Origin: a virus
DNA: 40,078 bases
Strand: one strand, 5' to 3'
IMG/VR virus record: IMGVR_UViG_3300044957_001277
Coordinates: 1 to 40,078 of that record
The notes beneath the pieces were generated by a model. That model was not told the origin of the DNA and did not search any database. It saw nothing but the letters and a program-made list of their open reading frames with translations. The position numbers and the translations under genes are program-made. Below are positions 7,177 to 38,395 of this stretch, one piece after another (position 1 is the stretch's first letter; each line of letters begins with the position of its first letter).

Positions 7177-9750
7177 TTATTTAATTTTCAATTCGCTTAA
7201 TTTCATATATATTTTTTGATCTTGTATAGCTATAACTTCTCCAAATATAGCATTATCTTTTTTTGTGCCCTTAACTACTACTATATTTTTCTCCTGATAA
7301 TTTTTATTATTATTAAGAAATTTATTAGTTTCTATAAAATTATTGAACAAAAGGGTATCTATAGTATTAGTTTCATCTGTAATAGTTACTCTACAAAATT
7401 TTGTCTTTCTTTCGTTTTGAGCGATACCTGTATAAACCTTTACTATTTCTCCTACAAAAAATACTTTTGTTCCGATTGGGACATTTATTACTTCGTTGAT
7501 GGAAAGAAGATTATCTCTTTTGTCGGCAAAAATGTCTCTTAAGGTTTTTTCATAAGTATATCCAAGCAGTCTTCTTTCATAGTACCAATTAGCAAAACTT
7601 TCGCTTTTGCTGTTTTGGTTATATATATCTAAATAAGGTTCGTATCTTTTTTTGATTGTATCAAGTCTGGTAGTTTTGATAATCACCTTACCCTTTTCGT
7701 CTGTAAATGTATTAAGATGTTTTATGATTTTAATTAAATCATAATCAAATTTTTCTCCAAAAGATATAGCGAATTTTTTTTCTTTTAGATTTAAGATGTT
7801 CCATAATTGAGCTTCTAATACAATTTTACTTCTTGATTGCTTAAAACCTGTTAAAGCTCCAGCTTGTATAAGCGAGCACAATACTCCAATATTTAAATCG
7901 GCTTCTTCTGCAGCTTGAAATATTTCAAATTTATTGGAATACTTGTTTCTAAAGCTATTCAACTTCTCTATTGATTTATCCGATATGCCTTTGACTGACA
8001 ATAAACCAAATCTAATATCATCATTTTCAATTGAGAAATCCATATCAGATTTAATGATATGGGGTCTTAAAAGTTTGATTCCAAAAGCTCCCATTTCTTT
8101 TTGTATCTTAGATATTTCTCCAATTGGATCTGGTTCATGCCTTGTCATTTTGAGTAAAGATAAAAAGAATTGTTTTGGATAATTAAATTTTAAATATACT
8201 GTACAAGCCGCTAAAGCTGCATACGCAATCGAATGTGATTTATTAAAAGAATAATTAGCAGAATCTTCCAAAATTTTCCATAAAATATTTCCTACCTCTT
8301 TAGGTAATTTATTATTTTTACATTTATCATTGATTTTATTTTGCCATTCTTTAATTTCTTCTACTTTCTTCTTCCCCACGATTCTTCTTAATATTTCTGC
8401 TTCGTCTAATGTAAATCCTATCTTATTAGCCATTTGCATCAACTGCTCTTGATATAAAGATACCCCTCCAGTTTGTTTTAAAATATCATCAAAGAATGGG
8501 TGTATCCCTTGATATTGTTGGGTATTAGTATATCTCGCGTATGTGTCCGCAAAATCTAATGCTCCAGGTCTAGCCAAAGCTAATACCGCACTCAATTCTT
8601 CTAAATTTTTAGGTTTTACTTTTTGACACACTCTAAAATTTGTATCTGCTTCAATTTGAAATAAGCCATGAGGAGTTTGAAGATCTTGTAAGGATCTATA
8701 AATAGATGGATCATTTAAATCTATATCTGTTATTTTTATGCCTATTTGTTTGCAAACATCATCCACAACAGATACGCTTCTTAATCCAAGAATGTCTAAT
8801 TTTATATTAAATAAAGAAGCCCAATTCATATCAAAAGACGATACAGGCTCTTTATCGCTAGAAAATTCTGTTGGACAAGACTCTTCTAATTTATTATAAG
8901 ATAACAACACTCCAGAAGGGTGTACGCCTTTATTCTTTATAAGATTTCTAAGTTTCAAAGCGATTTCATAAGTTTCTTTGTTTTCCTCGCACCATTTTTT
9001 AAACTTAGAGACTTCTTCATAAGCTTGTTTAATATCTTTAACTTGACCAAAGATTTTAGGTATCATACCAGATATTAATGTCATTTCTTGGTCCGACTTT
9101 TCTCCGACTATCTTTCCGCATTCTTTAATCAAAAGTCTTCCGCTTAAACTATTTAAAGTTAAAATTTTACTAGTTTTTCCTTTAAACTTTTCTTCAAGAT
9201 GTTGAAGCACTTTTTGTCTGTTATAATAACATATATCCAAATCAACATCACACATTAATGTACCATCTAAATACATTACTCCGTCAACCTCCTGTTTTTT
9301 GGCCCTAATCTTTGATATAAATCTTTCAAAATAAAGGTTATATTTTAAACTATCTATTTGGGTAACTCCTATCAAAAATAATATTAGTGATCCAGCAGCT
9401 GATCCTCTTCCTAAGCCAACTGGAATATTGTTTTCTTTGCAATAATTAATAACATACCAAACTAGTAGTATATAATCAATAAACCCAAGCTCCTTAATAG
9501 TGTCTAATTCATATTTAATACGATTAATATAATTATGATATTCTTCTGAATCTTTTTTAAGATTTAAACTTTTTAAACCTTTTAAAGTCAAAGCTCTAAG
9601 AAAATCATAATTCGAAGCGTCTTCGCTTATACCAACTTCATGTTTATATTTATTATCTATAGTAAATTCTGGAAGTCTTACGCCATGAAGCGGAAGATCT
9701 ATGTTAGAAAAATTAGAATCAAATTGTTTTAAATTAATTAAATTCGCCAT
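7177..9750 (-). CDS. dnaE: DNA polymerase III alpha subunit, polymerase part without PHP domain
   Basis: 857 aa, family C replicative polymerase. It starts at the PHP-palm linker (LPLHGVRLPEF). The palm/thumb carries GLGRGSAAGS (113-121), the catalytic Asp pair D168 and D170 (CDVDLD) and the third Asp D319 (KLDILGLRS). Fingers include FNKSHSIAYAALA. The C-terminal ~110 residues hold an OB-fold (GTKVFFVGEIVKV onward). An insertion of about 13 residues precedes the DxD motif. The usual N-terminal PHP domain (~270 aa) is absent and is encoded separately at 10582-11346. The ATG has a good AAGGA site and overlaps the upstream 71-aa gene by 17 bp, so PHP, exonuclease, small protein and polymerase form one operon. 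Confidence 0.95.
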   Translation of the reverse strand: MANLINLKQFDSNFSNIDLPLHGVRLPEFTIDNKYKHEVGISEDASNYDFLRALTLKGLKSLNLKKDSEEYHNYINRIKYELDTIKELGFIDYILLVWYVINYCKENNIPVGLGRGSAAGSLILFLIGVTQIDSLKYNLYFERFISKIRAKKQEVDGVMYLDGTLMCDVDLDICYYNRQKVLQHLEEKFKGKTSKILTLNSLSGRLLIKECGKIVGEKSDQEMTLISGMIPKIFGQVKDIKQAYEEVSKFKKWCEENKETYEIALKLRNLIKNKGVHPSGVLLSYNKLEESCPTEFSSDKEPVSSFDMNWASLFNIKLDILGLRSVSVVDDVCKQIGIKITDIDLNDPSIYRSLQDLQTPHGLFQIEADTNFRVCQKVKPKNLEELSAVLALARPGALDFADTYARYTNTQQYQGIHPFFDDILKQTGGVSLYQEQLMQMANKIGFTLDEAEILRRIVGKKKVEEIKEWQNKINDKCKNNKLPKEVGNILWKILEDSANYSFNKSHSIAYAALAACTVYLKFNYPKQFFLSLLKMTRHEPDPIGEISKIQKEMGAFGIKLLRPHIIKSDMDFSIENDDIRFGLLSVKGISDKSIEKLNSFRNKYSNKFEIFQAAEEADLNIGVLCSLIQAGALTGFKQSRSKIVLEAQLWNILNLKEKKFAISFGEKFDYDLIKIIKHLNTFTDEKGKVIIKTTRLDTIKKRYEPYLDIYNQNSKSESFANWYYERRLLGYTYEKTLRDIFADKRDNLLSINEVINVPIGTKVFFVGEIVKVYTGIAQNERKTKFCRVTITDETNTIDTLLFNNFIETNKFLNNNKNYQEKNIVVVKGTKKDNAIFGEVIAIQDQKIYMKLSELKIK

Positions 9751-9950: not shown

Positions 9951-10589
9951 TTAAAGATCTACCTGCCATTTCAATTTGTTCCATATTTTTATATTTAATT
10001 CAAGATCATTTAAAGCGTCGTGCAGTCTTTCGTAATCGTGTTCTATATCATTTTCTTTTCCCAACGTAATAAGAGAACTTTTTACATCTTTTCTTCTTGT
10101 GTGGTATATTTTGTACTGATACTCTAAGAAATTCTCTGATCTTTTATATGGCAAATTATATTTTATTCCTCTAGCCACACAATTTGTATCTATAATCTTA
10201 TTAATCAAATGATTCCAATGACACCCCATTTTCTTGTAAAGTTCTTTTATAAGATAAATATCAAAACCTAATATATTATGACCAATAATATAATCAGCAT
10301 GGTCTAGCCAATCTTTAATCGTTGGGAAAACTTCTTCTGGTTTCATACCTAATTTTTTAACTTTATTATGATCGTATCTAGTTATTCTCGCTGCATCATC
10401 ACTTATCTTTAAATCTGTATCCCAATTAATATAATAATTTTTACTATCATTTTTAAAGTCTCCTTTAACTTTTATCATTCCTATTTGCCAAGGTAAATTG
10501 TGACAAAAATTTAAACATAAATTAAATGTCTCGCAATCAATAAAGACATAATTTTTATTTTTGTCATATCTTAAAAGATGTTCATCCAT
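9951..10589 (-). CDS. DnaQ-like 3'-5' proofreading exonuclease
   Basis: 212 aa from the chosen start. DEDD superfamily motifs are clear: Exo I VFIDCETFNL (D and E), Exo II IIGHNILGFD, Exo III HDALNDLELN (His and Asp, DEDDh type). It would proofread for the family C polymerase encoded next to it. An open frame continues upstream to 10628, but the ATG at 10589 has a strong GGAGG site at 10599-10603 with 9-nt spacing and overlaps the upstream stop by 8 bp, so I take it as the start. The gene lies between the PHP-domain gene and the polymerase gene, an unusual place that puts all three products in one transcript. Confidence 0.9.
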   Translation of the reverse strand: MDEHLLRYDKNKNYVFIDCETFNLCLNFCHNLPWQIGMIKVKGDFKNDSKNYYINWDTDLKISDDAARITRYDHNKVKKLGMKPEEVFPTIKDWLDHADYIIGHNILGFDIYLIKELYKKMGCHWNHLINKIIDTNCVARGIKYNLPYKRSENFLEYQYKIYHTRRKDVKSSLITLGKENDIEHDYERLHDALNDLELNIKIWNKLKWQVDL

Positions 10590-11346
10590 TTTTAGATTCC
10601 TCCTTCCAGCTTTCAAAAGAAAAATCATTACTTGTCATATGTTCTATTTCGGGTTTATTTAAATTAGTCCTTACGTTAATGCATCTAAATGTCAAATATG
10701 ATTTAAAATCAGATTTTAATTTATAGTAAATGCTTTTTACATTAATAATATTATTCTTATTTTTTTTACAATAATCTAATACTTTTGATTTTATTAAATT
10801 GTCAAATGGAATATTGTTATTTTCAATAAAAAATGTTGGTGAGCAAAAATCAATTTGGGGCGTGCATAAAGCATTTTTCAATACGTTATTAAATATAAAT
10901 GAATCATAAAAAGGTACAGATAATAATAAATGGTCGTTGTTCCATATAGATTTTAATGTTTTAAAATCTGTTCTCGGTTCATAATAAAATCCGTTTTTAG
11001 CTGCAATACTAAATATTTTAATAAGTTTTTTGTATCCTTGATTATTTTTAAAAAATATTATAAATTTAGAATTTTTTATTCTACTTTGTTCACTTTTATC
11101 GTCTAAATTATCTGTCACGGTTATTCTTAATCCATATCTTAAATTAATATTATTCTTTGTGCAATTTGTGTAGGCTTGTAAAAAAGATGTCATATTATCT
11201 TCTACTAAATATAAATTTTTAAAATCATTTTCTTTGGCAATATTAATAATTGAATTTGGATAGAACTCTTCTTGAGCTTCGTCTTCAAGAGTTAATATAG
11301 ATCTACCTATACTATAGTGAGATTTAAATAAAGGTAATATATCCAT
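10582..11346 (-). CDS. Detached PHP domain of DNA polymerase III alpha, metal site degenerate
   Basis: 254 aa. It matches the N-terminal PHP domain of DnaE: start LFKSHYSIGRSILTLEDE, middle GYKKLIKIFSIAAKNGFYYE (compare GYKNLCKL.SLAH.EGFYYKPR in cellular DnaE), and end near the PHP-palm junction. The family's HxH pair is replaced by Leu and Lys (LFKSHYS), and the TDHG-type motif reads VEDN, so metal binding and any PHP exonuclease activity are probably lost. Its role is then likely structural, stabilising the polymerase. With the 857-aa product the sum is close to a full DnaE. It starts 6 nt downstream of a consensus promoter. Confidence 0.85.
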   Translation of the reverse strand: MDILPLFKSHYSIGRSILTLEDEAQEEFYPNSIINIAKENDFKNLYLVEDNMTSFLQAYTNCTKNNINLRYGLRITVTDNLDDKSEQSRIKNSKFIIFFKNNQGYKKLIKIFSIAAKNGFYYEPRTDFKTLKSIWNNDHLLLSVPFYDSFIFNNVLKNALCTPQIDFCSPTFFIENNNIPFDNLIKSKVLDYCKKNKNNIINVKSIYYKLKSDFKSYLTFRCINVRTNLNKPEIEHMTSNDFSFESWKEESKNG

Positions 11347-24443: not shown

Positions 24444-25508
24444 ATGAAATCTGTACTTAATTTAAAAAATATTGACTGCACTAAACAGCCCTTATTCTTT
24501 GGAGAAGATCTAAATCTTCAAAGATATGATCGTTTTAAATATCCTATATTTTTTGAGCTATTTAAAAAACAAGAAGAATTTTTTTGGTGGCCACATGAAG
24601 TATCCTTAAATAAAGACCGTAGCGATTATAAAGATCTCACTTGGCAAGAAAGATTTGTTTTTGATACTAATTTAAAGTTTCAGATCCTTGGAGACAGTAT
24701 GCTTTCAAGAAGTATTCACTCTCTCAAAGACTATGTTAGTAATCCAGAACTAGAAATTTGCATGAATACATGGCAAAGATTCGAAGGTATTCATAGTTAT
24801 TCTTACTCTTATCTTTTAAATAATGTGCATCCAGATGCTAGTAAATTTTTTGATAGTATAATAGAAGACGAAGAGATAACTTCTAGAGCGGAACTAATAA
24901 GAAATAATTTCGATAAAATACTTGGCAGTGATGATAAAAAAGATTTAAAACAAAAAATATTCGATTGTATTCTTTCGGTTAATGTTATGGAAGGGCTTGT
25001 TTTTTATGTTAGTTTTGCTTGTTCATTTTATTTTGGGTATCGCGGTAAAATGGAAGGCAACGCTAAAATAATTAAATTTATTCAAAGAGACGAAGCTTTA
25101 CATTTTGGTATTACTCAAAATTTACTTAAGATTCTAAAGGAAGAAGATAAAGAAGGCTTTACTTCTATAGTTAAGAAAAGCGAAGATAAAATTTATTCAT
25201 TTTATGAACAAGCCGCTAAAAATGAAATAGAATGGGCCGAGCATTTATTTAAAAATGGATCCTTACTTGGATTAAATGCAGAGGTTTTAGGTGGTTATGC
25301 AAAATGGTTATGCGATAATAGATTAAGATCTTTAGGCTATAAAAAGATCTTTAATCAAAAAGATAATCCTATTGCTGGTTGGATGGATAGCTATATGGAT
25401 AGTAGTAAAGTTCAAACCGCTCCACAAGAAACAGAGCTTCAATCTTATAAAATAGGTGCTAGAAAAACTGATATTTCTGATAATGATTTTGATGATTTAA
25501 AGCTGTAA
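24444..25508 (+). CDS. nrdB: Ribonucleotide reductase class I, beta subunit
   Basis: 354 aa. Di-iron/tyrosyl radical protein partner of NrdA. Metal ligands and radical site can be placed: Asp in FQILGDSM, FEGIHSYSYSY with Glu, His and the radical Tyr at the position of E. coli Y122, NVMEGLVFYVSF with Glu, and QRDEALHFG with Glu and His. The C-terminal tail NDFDDLKL fits docking to NrdA. It is separated from nrdA by the FkbM gene and carries a GTGTAA element before its ATG, so it may also be transcribed alone. Confidence 0.96.
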   Translation: MKSVLNLKNIDCTKQPLFFGEDLNLQRYDRFKYPIFFELFKKQEEFFWWPHEVSLNKDRSDYKDLTWQERFVFDTNLKFQILGDSMLSRSIHSLKDYVSNPELEICMNTWQRFEGIHSYSYSYLLNNVHPDASKFFDSIIEDEEITSRAELIRNNFDKILGSDDKKDLKQKIFDCILSVNVMEGLVFYVSFACSFYFGYRGKMEGNAKIIKFIQRDEALHFGITQNLLKILKEEDKEGFTSIVKKSEDKIYSFYEQAAKNEIEWAEHLFKNGSLLGLNAEVLGGYAKWLCDNRLRSLGYKKIFNQKDNPIAGWMDSYMDSSKVQTAPQETELQSYKIGARKTDISDNDFDDLKL

Positions 25509-32320: not shown

Positions 32321-33424
32321 ATGTTTAATTTTAAAGAAGCCATAGGATATGATGATATCTGTTTATTACCAAACTTTTCAGATATTGCATCTAGAAAAGA
32401 AGTGAGCACAATGACCAAAATTAGTAGAACCAAATATATAGACTATCCAATCATTATATCTCCAATGGATACAATATCTTCTGTTAAGGGTTGTATTAAA
32501 ATAAATAAATTAGGTGGAGCGGGAGTTTTACATAGATTTATGTCTATACAAGATCAAGCGATTAAAGCAAGAAAGATAAAAGATGAAAGCGGATTTTGTA
32601 TGACTGCAATTGGTTTAAAAGATTTTAACAAAAGAGTAGAAGCTACAAAAGAATATACAGATATTTATTTTTTAGATACTGCAAACGGTCTTTCTAAGAA
32701 TGTAGAAGATTTTTTAATTGCATTTAAAACCGCTAACTATACTCAAGATATAATTGTAGGTAATACTCTTACAAAAGAAAGTGTTTATAGATTGGCTAAT
32801 TTAAAAGCGGACGGATTTAGGCATTTAATAGGCCCTGGAAGCATGTGCTTAACACAAATGAAAACAGGAATAGGATGTCCAAGCATCACTGGATTGTATT
32901 ACGCATGGAAAGCTGCTAGAAATTGGCAATTAGCTAATTTGGATTATTTTAGACACGAAAATATTAGTGATGACAACCGTCCGAGTATTCTAGCAGACGG
33001 AGGAATAAGATATCCAAAGGATCTCGTAAAAGCTATTGCTAGCGGAGCGGATGTAGTAATATGCGGAAGGATTTTCGCTGGACTTAGTGATATAGTAGAC
33101 GAAGAAAATATTGTAAAAAGAGGTGGAAAATATTACGCTAAATACAGAGGAATGGCCAGCAAAGATGTCGTTGAAGATTATGAATTGTATGACGGTACGA
33201 AACGAAATCTTTTTATAGAAGGGGACACTACACTAATACCTCTTATTACAAATAAGACCTTAGAAGATGTAGTGTTTGATTTTGTAAATGGCTTGAGAAG
33301 CGCTATGAGTTACTTAGGATTTAGAAACATACAAGAAATGCGAGGGGGATTGTGGACGGATAAAATAAGAGCCATAAGAGTAACACCTAATAGTTTGTAT
33401 GAAGGCTTCTCTCATGGTAAATAA
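32321..33424 (+). CDS. IMPDH/GMP reductase family enzyme, GMP reductase-like favoured
   Basis: 367 aa, TIM barrel without CBS domains. Start YDDICLLPNFSDIASRKEV, then SPMDTISSV, the catalytic loop GPGSMCLTQMKTGIGCPS with the nucleophile Cys and the following Thr, ILADGGIRYPKDLVKAIASGAD, and YRGMASKDVVED. Features that favour GMP reductase (GMP to IMP) over IMP dehydrogenase are the KTGIG after the Cys, the absence of the Arg-Tyr flap and PEGIEG, and the short stretch between GMAS and EGD. Length also fits GuaC. It lies in the rightward operon upstream of the adenylosuccinate synthetase-like gene. Direction of the reaction needs assay. Confidence 0.82.
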   Translation: MFNFKEAIGYDDICLLPNFSDIASRKEVSTMTKISRTKYIDYPIIISPMDTISSVKGCIKINKLGGAGVLHRFMSIQDQAIKARKIKDESGFCMTAIGLKDFNKRVEATKEYTDIYFLDTANGLSKNVEDFLIAFKTANYTQDIIVGNTLTKESVYRLANLKADGFRHLIGPGSMCLTQMKTGIGCPSITGLYYAWKAARNWQLANLDYFRHENISDDNRPSILADGGIRYPKDLVKAIASGADVVICGRIFAGLSDIVDEENIVKRGGKYYAKYRGMASKDVVEDYELYDGTKRNLFIEGDTTLIPLITNKTLEDVVFDFVNGLRSAMSYLGFRNIQEMRGGLWTDKIRAIRVTPNSLYEGFSHGK

Positions 33425-34530: not shown

Positions 34531-34801
34531 AGAAAATAAATACATAGAAGTTGAAGCAAAACAAGTTGATAACGGTGATATTGATTTTTCATCAATAAAG
34601 CCTTATGTTCAACCCTACGAAAGAGGTCCTATCCATAGGATAGCCCCAAAAATGGGAAGAAATCAGTACTGCCCTATTGAAAGCAAAAAATTTAAAGATT
34701 GTTGCGGTAAAAATGGAAATAATTTTTGTTATAAAATGCTCGCTACTTTTTTAGAAAAAATTCAAACCCCAAATTCTGGTTTAGCGAATGAATCAAATTA
34801 A
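34517..34801 (+). CDS. SEC-C zinc-motif protein
   Basis: 94 aa. Residues ~46-66 (KMGRNQYCPIESKKFKDCCG) match the SEC-C zinc motif (GRNxxCxCGSGKKYKxCC), where the second Cys of the CxC is Glu here, so one ligand may come from elsewhere (a later Cys is in NFCYKML). SEC-C modules act as protein-binding zinc knuckles, as at the end of SecA. It overlaps genes on both sides by 14 bp and is coupled to the synthetase gene. The ATG at 34523 is also possible. Confidence 0.7.
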   Translation: MNMNKENKYIEVEAKQVDNGDIDFSSIKPYVQPYERGPIHRIAPKMGRNQYCPIESKKFKDCCGKNGNNFCYKMLATFLEKIQTPNSGLANESN

Positions 34802-35801
34802 TTATGTAGATATTATTTTTGGTCTTCAATGGGGCGACGAAGGTAAAGGAAAAATCAGTAATGCTATATCAAATGATTATGATATAGTTTGTAGATGGAA
34901 TGGCGGACCAAACGCTGGACATACGATTTATATAAATGATAAGAAATATAAAACCCATATGATACCGTGCGGAGTTTTTAAAAATAAATTAAGTGTAATT
35001 GGTCCGAATTGTGTTATTAATATAAATAAGTTTTATGATGAAATAGAATATTTAAACAAAGAGGGTTTTGATACCTCTTTAGTTAAAGTTAGCCCAAAGG
35101 CGCATATTATAACAGACAAGCATATTCTTTACGATAAACTACATCTTCAAGAAAAATTAGGTACAACAGCGCAAGGTATAGCTCCTGCTTATTCAGACAA
35201 AATGTTAAGATGTGGAAAATTAGCTAAAGATTATATTGATAAAAAATATATTTGGGACGAAAATTTATATGGTAAAATATTATGCGAGGGAGCACAAAGT
35301 TTTTGGTTGGATATAAATTATGGAAATTATCCATATGTTACAAGTAGCGAGACGCTACCTTATTCAGCTTGTTCTTTAGGATTTTCTCCCAAAAACATAA
35401 AAAATATTATTGGTGTAGCTAAGATTTACGATACAAAAAGCGGTGTAGATCCTCTATTTCCAAATTCTTTATGGGAGAATGAGGAAATAAACATGCTTGT
35501 TCAATTAGGAAATGAATATGGATCTACTACAGGAAGAAAAAGGTCTGCAAACTGGATACGATTAAATCATCTTATTAAAGCTATAAATATTTCTGGTACA
35601 ACTAAACTTATATTAAATAAGTGCGATGTTATAGAGAATCTAGGAATCTATAAAGTTATTTTTGACAACGCAAAAGATGGTCCTAACTTTTTAAAGTTTA
35701 TATCGTTTGATGCAATGAAAAATTTTATAGTTAAATACATAAAAGAAAACACTAATGAAAATATTGAAATTATTTTTTCTGGAGATAAATCTAAAATATG
35801 A
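34788..35801 (+). CDS. Adenylosuccinate synthetase family enzyme (short archaeal/phage form)
   Basis: 337 aa, shorter than bacterial PurA (~430) and similar in length to archaeal PurA and phage PurZ. The P-loop is GLQWGDEGKGK with catalytic Asp D17 kept (PurZ enzymes that make the 2-aminoadenine precursor have Ser there), then NGGPNAGHT with His45, GTTAQGIAPAY, LCEGAQSFWLDINYGNYPYV and the aspartate loop YGSTTGRKRS. It should join IMP and aspartate using GTP to give adenylosuccinate; dGMP as substrate cannot be excluded. It is coupled by ATGA overlap to a DUF6065 gene. With the GuaC-like gene upstream it could move guanine to adenine nucleotides. Confidence 0.88.
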   Translation: MNQINYVDIIFGLQWGDEGKGKISNAISNDYDIVCRWNGGPNAGHTIYINDKKYKTHMIPCGVFKNKLSVIGPNCVININKFYDEIEYLNKEGFDTSLVKVSPKAHIITDKHILYDKLHLQEKLGTTAQGIAPAYSDKMLRCGKLAKDYIDKKYIWDENLYGKILCEGAQSFWLDINYGNYPYVTSSETLPYSACSLGFSPKNIKNIIGVAKIYDTKSGVDPLFPNSLWENEEINMLVQLGNEYGSTTGRKRSANWIRLNHLIKAINISGTTKLILNKCDVIENLGIYKVIFDNAKDGPNFLKFISFDAMKNFIVKYIKENTNENIEIIFSGDKSKI

Positions 35802-37333: not shown

Positions 37334-37891
37334 TTAGTTTAATTTAATTTGTTTTACAAAATTTAAAGTTTGTTCTTTTGTAAAATCATTTTTCATTACA
37401 TTAATACAGTAACATACAAATTCTACATTACCTTTTATATAACCTTTAGATGGATCTATTCTATCAAGACTTGCTTTTATTGGGGTTTTCTTAATATCCT
37501 CATCTTTACTTGTTCTGCCTAACTCCATTTCTATTCCTGTATATGGACAAAGACCATTTTGGTTATCCCAAACCTCTTTTAAATATTGAACATCTAAATC
37601 TGTTTTCTCTCCTCTAGACTTACTTCTTGATCTTGCTTTATTAGCGTGATATTTAAATGGGCTAAATTGGTCTAGTCTACATCCACAATATTTTGTTATT
37701 CTAATAGCGTTAGCTTCTCTAAATTTTTTAAATTTATCTGGATTTTTATTAACATCAGCTTTACCAACGCATTTGTAACTACAGTAAAATCTAGTTTTAC
37801 CTTGTCTAATTCTTCTTTTGTATTCAGATTTTAATTTATCAAATATATTACCACAATAAAGACATTTTAATTTAATTTTAGATATTGCCAT
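37334..37891 (-). CDS. HNH endonuclease with N-terminal zinc finger, homing-type
   Basis: 185 aa from the chosen start. N-terminal zinc finger KCLYCGNIF with a second pair in FYCSYKCVG, then basic segments, then an HNH motif (ASLDRIDPSKGYIKGNVEFV followed by CINVMKNDF), typical of phage homing endonucleases with LDRID, GNV and N.MK. An open frame runs up to 37981, but that would invade the 3' end of the tmRNA gene, and the ATG at 37891 gives the normal domain start. It lies 68 bp downstream of the tmRNA 3' end on the same strand. It is probably a mobile gene. Confidence 0.82.
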   Translation of the reverse strand: MAISKIKLKCLYCGNIFDKLKSEYKRRIRQGKTRFYCSYKCVGKADVNKNPDKFKKFREANAIRITKYCGCRLDQFSPFKYHANKARSRSKSRGEKTDLDVQYLKEVWDNQNGLCPYTGIEMELGRTSKDEDIKKTPIKASLDRIDPSKGYIKGNVEFVCYCINVMKNDFTKEQTLNFVKQIKLN

Positions 37892-37958
37892 TTTCGTATT
37901 ATATATCAACAATAAATTATATTCTAATTTAAATTGGAGGCGAATGAATTCGTTTGCT

Positions 37959-38346
37959 TGGACCCGGTATGAATTGAACATACGTCTTTTAGTGAACCTA
38001 AATTAAAATACTACAAGTTTAGTTGTTTTTATTTTTAGCTTTATGTAGAGAAACAACAAACATACTCAGCGATTTTATTTTGTATACTAAGTCAATAGAG
38101 AATAAAAAAACTTTAAAGACAAAGACATCTAAATACGCAACTATCCATTAGATGTGTCGTGGTAGTCACGCTGTAGAACTTAGGCTACAGAAACGGTCTC
38201 TTCTACCAAAGAAACTTTGGCAGAAATATGACCTTTGTATTTACCTGTTTTGGCAGTTAATACTTGCAAGGTTTTTTAAAGAGACCCACCTAAACCTCTA
38301 CTTGCATTTTAATTCTAATTCCTAAAATCGAAACCAGTACGGGCCC
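37959..38346 (-). ncRNA. ssrA: tmRNA (transfer-messenger RNA)
   Basis: On the minus strand the 5' end reads GGGCCCGTACTGGTTTCGA, the tmRNA 5' consensus, and pairs over 7 bp with CGGGTCC at the 3' end (37966-37960). Next to it is a T-arm GTATG-TTCAATT-CATAC. TGCAAGTAGAGG matches the conserved post-acceptor segment (compare TGCAtGCCGAGG). The resume site is TTAACT then GCC AAA, and the tag frame (38254-38180) ends in TAA placed in the loop of a hairpin CTGTAG/CTACAG, as in helix 5. CCA is not encoded; discriminator is A at 37959. It rescues stalled ribosomes and tags the nascent protein. Length ~388 nt is normal. No other tRNA was seen. Confidence 0.92.
38180..38254 (-). CDS. tmRNA proteolysis tag reading frame
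   Basis: Resume codon GCC at 38254-38252, then 24 sense codons in all and TAA at 38182-38180. The tag starts AKTGKYKGHISAKVS and ends EETVSVA. It is longer than most bacterial tags (8-15 residues is usual, some are longer) and ends SVA rather than the LAA or VAA usual in bacteria, which ClpXP recognises. Confidence 0.85.
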   Translation of the reverse strand, partial: AKTGKYKGHISAKVSLVEETVSVA

Positions 38347-38367
38347 AATGAGAAAGAACTATAATGA

Positions 38368-38395
38368 ATTATACACGATATTTGAAAATAATCAA
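38368..38395 (-). promoter_or_regulatory. sigma70-type promoter of the tmRNA
   Basis: Minus strand: -35 TTGATT (38395-38390), 16-nt spacer, -10 TATAAT (38373-38368). The start would be ~15-20 nt before the mature 5' end at 38346, so a short 5' trailer must be removed, as by RNase P. It overlaps the first codons of an open frame at 38364 (+), which argues against that upstream start. Confidence 0.75.

Follow-up and report, generated by a model that had tools for sequence, protein, structure and literature searches.

We use "the window" for the whole stretch of DNA analysed here, a 40078-base virus record with phage replication genes. It encodes a DnaE-type polymerase, a DnaB helicase, a UvsX-like recombinase, a ribonucleotide reductase and a PurZ-like adenylosuccinate synthetase. 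Scanning all 40078 bases, ARAGORN finds the single tmRNA listed in Table 1, reads the tag given there and calls no other tRNA or tmRNA gene. The Rfam model RF00023 matches 37958-38346 (-) over its full length (model 1-374 of 374) with 96.2 bits and an E value of 1.9e-36, where the gathering score is 47; the alignment posterior is low over pseudoknots 2 to 4. The original prediction, made from the letters alone, was that this virus record holds a complete tmRNA that a covariance model should find, and both methods agree with it. It had taken all of 37959-38395 for the RNA gene. That stands as far as 38346, while the rest up to 38395 is promoter-like sequence. The tmRNA strand folds better than 100 of 100 dinucleotide shuffles (z -4.9). 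There is no CCA encoded beyond the discriminator A.

Table 1. Features at the tmRNA locus, in window coordinates and in the 5' to 3' order of the RNA
Feature	Position	Strand	Basis or remark
Sigma70-like promoter TTGATT-16-TATAAT	38368..38395	-	10/12 consensus, upstream of tmRNA
Conserved 5' leader (T)AGTTCTTT..ATT	38347..38361	-	upstream flanks of relatives; abuts mature 5' end
Standard-form (one-piece) tmRNA gene	37959..38346	-	ARAGORN, Rfam RF00023, covariation
Acceptor stem, 5' strand GGGCCCG	38340..38346	-	G3-U70 in 57/57; pairs 5 and 6 covary
Pseudoknot 1	38269..38299	-	two crossing helices
Frame-setting ATTAACT ahead of resume codon	38255..38261	-	alignments
Resume codon GCC	38254-38252	-	
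Tag reading frame and stop, AKTGKYKGHISAKVSLVEETVSVA then stop	38180..38254	-	ARAGORN, frame conservation, pN/pS
Hairpin with tag stop codon, CTGTAG/CTACAG	38171..38190	-	invariant
T arm, hypervariable but compensated stem	37967..37983	-	13 stem types among 57 genes
Acceptor 3' strand CGGGTCC and discriminator A, CCA not encoded	37959..37966	-	
18-nt stretch shaped like a tRNA 3' half	37935..37952	-	just downstream of tmRNA
Endonuclease VII / HNH-type endonuclease gene	37334..37891	-	adjoins tmRNA; PHROG matches

Two routes lead to relatives of this gene. The first goes through DnaB, with the best 80 of 139 IMG/VR records that match the window protein. RF00023 scores above its cut-off in 22 of these 80 (22/50 and 0/30, the 30 being mostly short contigs). 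Among the 29 records of at least 50 kb there are 19 with a tmRNA and 10 with none over the cut-off; in one of these 10 (G032) all that matches is 18 nt close to the end of a contig, below the threshold. Perhaps the family can do without the gene, or the records that lack it may be fragments. For 21 of the 22 tmRNA records ARAGORN gives a tag, always of the same kind, although in one (L101) it begins the tag three codons late. In the 22nd, L092, the tag reads ...TASVV by eye. The second route searches the DNA with a degenerate motif that covers the core of the tag. It hits 69 IMG/VR contigs, many of which are also among the records found through DnaB, and 69/69 encode such a tag. ARAGORN calls a tmRNA in 63; in the remaining 6, some of them at contig ends, this tag follows immediately on TTAACT or TCAACT, and they are read as tag only. 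From 91 loci we kept 57 distinct tmRNA genes for comparison after dropping duplicates and 6 loci that ARAGORN does not call. L092 is not among the 91.

The motif was also run over bacterial and archaeal contigs from 84,980 species. It has 26 matches there, none of them a tmRNA tag: ARAGORN calls no tmRNA at these loci, and the translations around the matches are unrelated. Bacterial tags that have diverged in the core would escape the motif, but as far as it can tell the tag appears to be confined to viruses.

The RNA has the anatomy of a standard-form bacterial tmRNA (RF00023). The likeness extends to the G3-U70 acceptor, the T arm, the D-loop-like UGGUUUCGA, pseudoknot 1, an Ala resume codon with A at -4, the tag frame and the stop hairpin. 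It differs from the Rfam consensus at the inner end of helix 2, which is GCAAG/CTTGT in place of GCAUG/CAUGU. G3-U70 is the alanine identity element, and this Ala-type wobble is kept in every one of the 57 distinct genes. The acceptor stem is fully paired in 56/57 and varies in concert at pairs 5 and 6. The A at -4 is invariant in the alignments and takes the place of A86, which sets the frame in E. coli tmRNA (PMC2481249).

Covariation was scored in 21 sequences for 30 pairs in six named helices. Of the cells in these helices 98.1% are paired, and there are 63 double-change cells where shuffles give 16.2. The covariation score is 0.280 against 0.102 in shuffles, and pairing falls to 28-47% when the partner columns are slid by 1 to 3. 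The count of further pair types, which is one of five measures of covariation used, has no excess (17 against 20.3 in shuffles). Both sides change at 5 of 5 pairs of the T stem and at 4 of 8 pairs of pseudoknot 1. The second helix of pseudoknot 1 is 85.7% paired, with one of its pairs failing in 12 of the 21 sequences. For PK2 only one helix was counted; it is 100% paired with a double change at 1 of 6 pairs, in a region where the alignment posterior is low. The stop-codon hairpin is 100% paired wherever both sides have letters, and the stop codon lies in its loop. Among the 57 genes the T stem is fully paired in 52 and the other 5 have A-A at the outer pair. This stem turns over very fast yet stays mostly paired, with a mean T-arm distance of 0.34 where that of the tag is 0.12. 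Gene conversion, homing or nuclease escape are possible causes.

The tag is 24 residues long and rich in K, R and H. A long tag that ends in SVA had been predicted, and the relatives bear this out, as SVA closes the tag in 57/57 distinct ARAGORN-called genes. The LAA/VAA-like C-terminus of ssrA tags that ClpX reads is thus found in none of them. One further record, G026, whose first 400 bases are both L092 and L119, has a natural tag variant with an SVV end. The prediction had also allowed for a host-type tag in another frame. The AKT...SVA frame is open in all 57 distinct genes and both other frames contain a stop in all 57.

The selection on this frame is not uniform. For the whole tag pN/pS is 0.19 in 45 distinct tag DNAs, where shuffled alignment columns average 0.86 and 0/200 shuffles are as low. 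Codons 1-18 of these 45 DNAs have a pN/pS of 0.06 (pS 0.33, pN 0.019), and codons 19-24 have 1.03 with no excess of silent changes. Because residues 5-9 and 12 are imposed by the motif search, we repeated the calculation on the 21 DnaB-found genes, which are 20 relatives and the window after dropping L089 (a duplicate) and L092 (uncalled). The values are 0.21 overall, 0.07 for codons 1-18 and 1.21 for codons 19-24, and the tag core is identical in these genes. Codons 1-18 of the tag therefore evolve as protein under strong amino-acid constraint, to judge from the pattern of substitutions.

Nineteen distinct natural tags occur among the 57 genes, with a near-fixed core and the fixed SVA end. 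Residues 1, 2, 5-9, 11, 12, 16, 18 and 22-24 are invariant, 19 and 21 vary widely and 20 varies a little. S22 and V23 have codons that show no change even in the third base and that sit in the stop hairpin, so their constancy is inseparable from constraint on the RNA. The codon of A24 does change silently (GCC or GCT) and is always Ala in this set. Since codons 19-24 have no silent excess, it is only the constancy of SVA, which lies partly in that hairpin and gives way to SVV in one record, that speaks for a C-terminal degron. This is unlike a simple pattern where the last three residues matter, and it suggests that something binds the inner segment.

The flanks have features of their own. Upstream of the RNA, at a distance of 21 nt, there is a TTGATT-16-TATAAT box. 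The 1-kb region has 16 sigma70-like sites against a mean of 6.8 in shuffles. Since such sites are frequent in this AT-rich region, the box is weak evidence by itself. TATAAT-like boxes do occur at a similar distance in the flanks of many relatives. It must be noted that a GTGTAA motif recurs shortly before starts in the window, e.g. at 24444, 25549, 25902 and 39379 (+), and many relatives have it beside the TATAAT box of the tmRNA gene too. It is possibly a phage-specific promoter element.

On the other side of the gene, the 18-mer consists of a T-loop half, a T-stem, an acceptor strand and a discriminator A. Its pattern, CGA[AT]T-N12-A with variable sequence, occurs in 26 of 57 downstream flanks. 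The adjoining gene matches endonuclease families phrog_3322 (E 9.4e-27), phrog_1035 (E 8.3e-16) and phrog_3118 (E 1.7e-15), and more weakly the Srd anti-sigma family phrog_1400 (E 1.1e-10); no Pfam family reaches its cut-off. In the 55 flanks of sufficient length, 24 of the 25 that have the 18-mer also have the endonuclease gene, against 8 of the 30 that lack the 18-mer; the p-value of 8e-8 is optimistic because the sequences are related. Together with the fast T-stem turnover, this has the look of a homing-endonuclease cassette abutting the 3' end of the tmRNA. We also considered the 18-mer as the phage's own attP. This was rejected, as a tyrosine integrase (PF00589) is missing from 38 of 38 records and the 18-mer has no exact match among 20 phage tRNAs. 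We take it instead as a part of the putative endonuclease cassette.

Neither a phage tmRNA nor an odd tag ending is new, given the published phage tmRNAs and the annotation of Mycobacterium phage GenevaB15. The annotated GenevaB15 tag, AADVAADYAAVGA, also has an unusual ending, VGA, but that tmRNA sits among tRNAs and the window has no tRNA gene by ARAGORN. Mollicute tmRNA tags that end in NYAFA are long. They share the non-LAA end, and their recognition is described as having moved to Lon (PMC9382460). They have no sequence resemblance to the phage tag. The original work on fluorescent-protein tag variants reportedly had ASV, not SVA. In a review, LVA, AAV and SVA are given as E. coli tag variants fused to fluorescent proteins, with AAV called slower than LAA (PMC9382460).

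Among phages, the tmRNA genes of phage G, Bxz1 and Wildcat have long been known (PMC4131195). The mycobacteriophage and Bacillus phage G genes resemble ours in being tmRNA genes within a phage (PMC4131195), but they have other tags than this uncultured family, and the consensus tag has no tblastn match in 50,697 phage records. The Wildcat tmRNA is reported as the most highly expressed lytic gene of that phage (PMC7474061), and phage DS6A is said to have little more than the tRNA-like domain of ssrA (PMC4131195). A 2022 study counted tmRNA in 402 of 18,146 phage genomes, and describes the methylophage Melnitz and related aquatic phages as having their own ssrA (PMC9004378). The Melnitz-type tmRNA is two-piece and circularly permuted whereas that of the window has the standard form. 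Also unlike the permuted form, ours occurs in phages with a DnaE-type polymerase. In the 2025 tmRNA database, 79 of the 97,179 unique sequences come from phages, and 10 is the most frequent tag length (PMC11915505); the tag here has 24 residues. A full-text search with three fragments of the tag found no paper, and none of the papers listed by topic searches was recognised as dealing with this tag. What appears to be new, judging from these comparisons, is a long, protein-conserved tag met only in an uncultured virus family.

To look for the host we used a covariance model (R1) of the 5' domain of the phage tmRNA. In 13 genomes 9 match at E<=10. Of 144 genomes from the phylum of a Bacteriovoracaceae genome 15 match at E<=0.5. 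At E<=0.01 there is 1 match in 247 genomes from the phylum of a Porphyromonadaceae genome, and there are 2 in 398 from the phylum of Undibacterium. The larger runs used stricter filters that lose matches, and the best genome of the run of 13 had none in the run of 144. ARAGORN finds a tmRNA at 4 of 23 matched loci scanned, and all four have ordinary tags: ANDNYAMAA, GNNEYALAA, ANTSDYALAA and ANYDYALAA. It makes no call at L219, which the 5'-domain model matches at E 2.7e-4. No host was identified in the bacterial genomes scanned with this model and the tag motif. Named phages give no host either since their identities are low, at most 28.3% to a relative's terminase (12 matches listed), 26.5% to DnaB and 31.6% to the polymerase (25 matches listed for each). 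The NrdA of the window is nearest to that of pelagiphage HTVC008M, at 53%, among the matches listed. An SD-like box stands before 9 of 45 window starts, which hints at a host with little use of SD.

What would such an RNA do for the phage? Suggested roles of phage tmRNAs are the upkeep of hijacked translation and the selective tagging of host proteins (PMC9004378). We argue for the following scenario. The phage would make its own standard-form tmRNA, which host AlaRS would charge via G3-U70. Genes for SmpB, ClpP and Lon were found in 10, 12 and 13 of 14 control genomes but in none of 38 family records, the window included, and these records may be fragments. The RNA would then depend on host SmpB and host proteases. 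Host SmpB would bring the phage tmRNA into stalled ribosomes, translation would resume at GCC, and the stalled protein would gain the 24-residue tag. The likeliest benefit is that ribosome rescue goes on during the breakdown of host RNA and mRNA. The tagged fragments would be handled by a phage-specific signal, where the conserved segment AKTAKYKGHISARVSLVE and the SVA end would bind some host protease or adaptor. We hold with moderate confidence that the phage's own tmRNA keeps rescue running and marks the products with a phage signal. As the original prediction proposed, the phage RNA might replace a lost host tmRNA, and the SVA end could weaken or redirect degradation.

One can go a step further and imagine a rescue tag code specific to the family, in which the inner 18 residues recruit a host adaptor or protease beyond the reading of LAA by ClpX. 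We offer this only tentatively. If it were true the products of stalled translation would leave host quality control for a route chosen by the phage.

The most serious competitor is that rescue is all that matters. The tag would then be weak or non-degrading, the fragments would be stable, and the sequence would serve decoding or solubility. An SVA end without the LAA/VAA form agrees with this, as does the lack of a phage ClpP or Lon gene in the 38 records. A hybrid phage that depends on E. coli tmRNA is also reported to propagate without correct frame choice, so the tag is not critical there (PMC2481249). However, if the tag product were irrelevant the strong constraint on residues 1-18 would be hard to explain, and altered endings are not necessarily inert, as the LVA, AAV and SVA variants indicate (PMC9382460). 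We consider rescue alone unlikely.

Constraint on the inner 18 residues, away from the degron end, could also mean that the tag is a functional peptide. It would target or block a host factor while on stalled proteins, and proteolysis would be secondary. The motif being met as a tmRNA tag in viruses only is in line with this. There is no candidate activity, though, since the tag has no match among PDB chains at E up to 10 or in the named phages, and binding to an adaptor or protease is sufficient to explain the constraint, given that NYAFA tags are described as being read by Lon (PMC9382460). We think a peptide with its own activity is distinctly improbable.

Phages do carry ssrA, and the DS6A form, cut down nearly to the tRNA-like domain (PMC4131195), makes one ask whether the gene is what remains of a captured bacterial ssrA, inert or inhibitory, or whether it titrates SmpB as a decoy. 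But here every part is kept, including the tag frame and its stop. The covariation and the low pN/pS show long-term selection, and the motif scan met no bacterial tmRNA with this tag, so we give a relic or decoy very little credence. Still less credible is a tag conserved solely through the need of the RNA to fold: codons 22-23 do overlap the stop hairpin and are frozen, but codons 1-18 readily change silently while replacements are rare, and no column shuffle reaches the ratio of the whole tag.

The 19 natural tags set the seemingly important residues (most of 1-18, and 22-24) apart from the widely varying 19 and 21. This makes the tag family a testable handle on why phages carry tmRNA.

Some other genes of the window deserve mention. 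The DnaE-type DNA polymerase is split in two genes (7177-9750 and 10582-11346, both on the minus strand), and an RNase_T-domain exonuclease gene (9951-10628) lies between the pieces. The PurZ-like adenylosuccinate synthetase at 34788-35801 (+) matches phrog_1211 and Pfam Adenylsucc_synt, and there is an IMPDH-domain gene at 32321-33424. These two would fit DNA with 2-aminoadenine. In several relatives ORFs that resemble the PurZ-like synthetase are close to the tmRNA.
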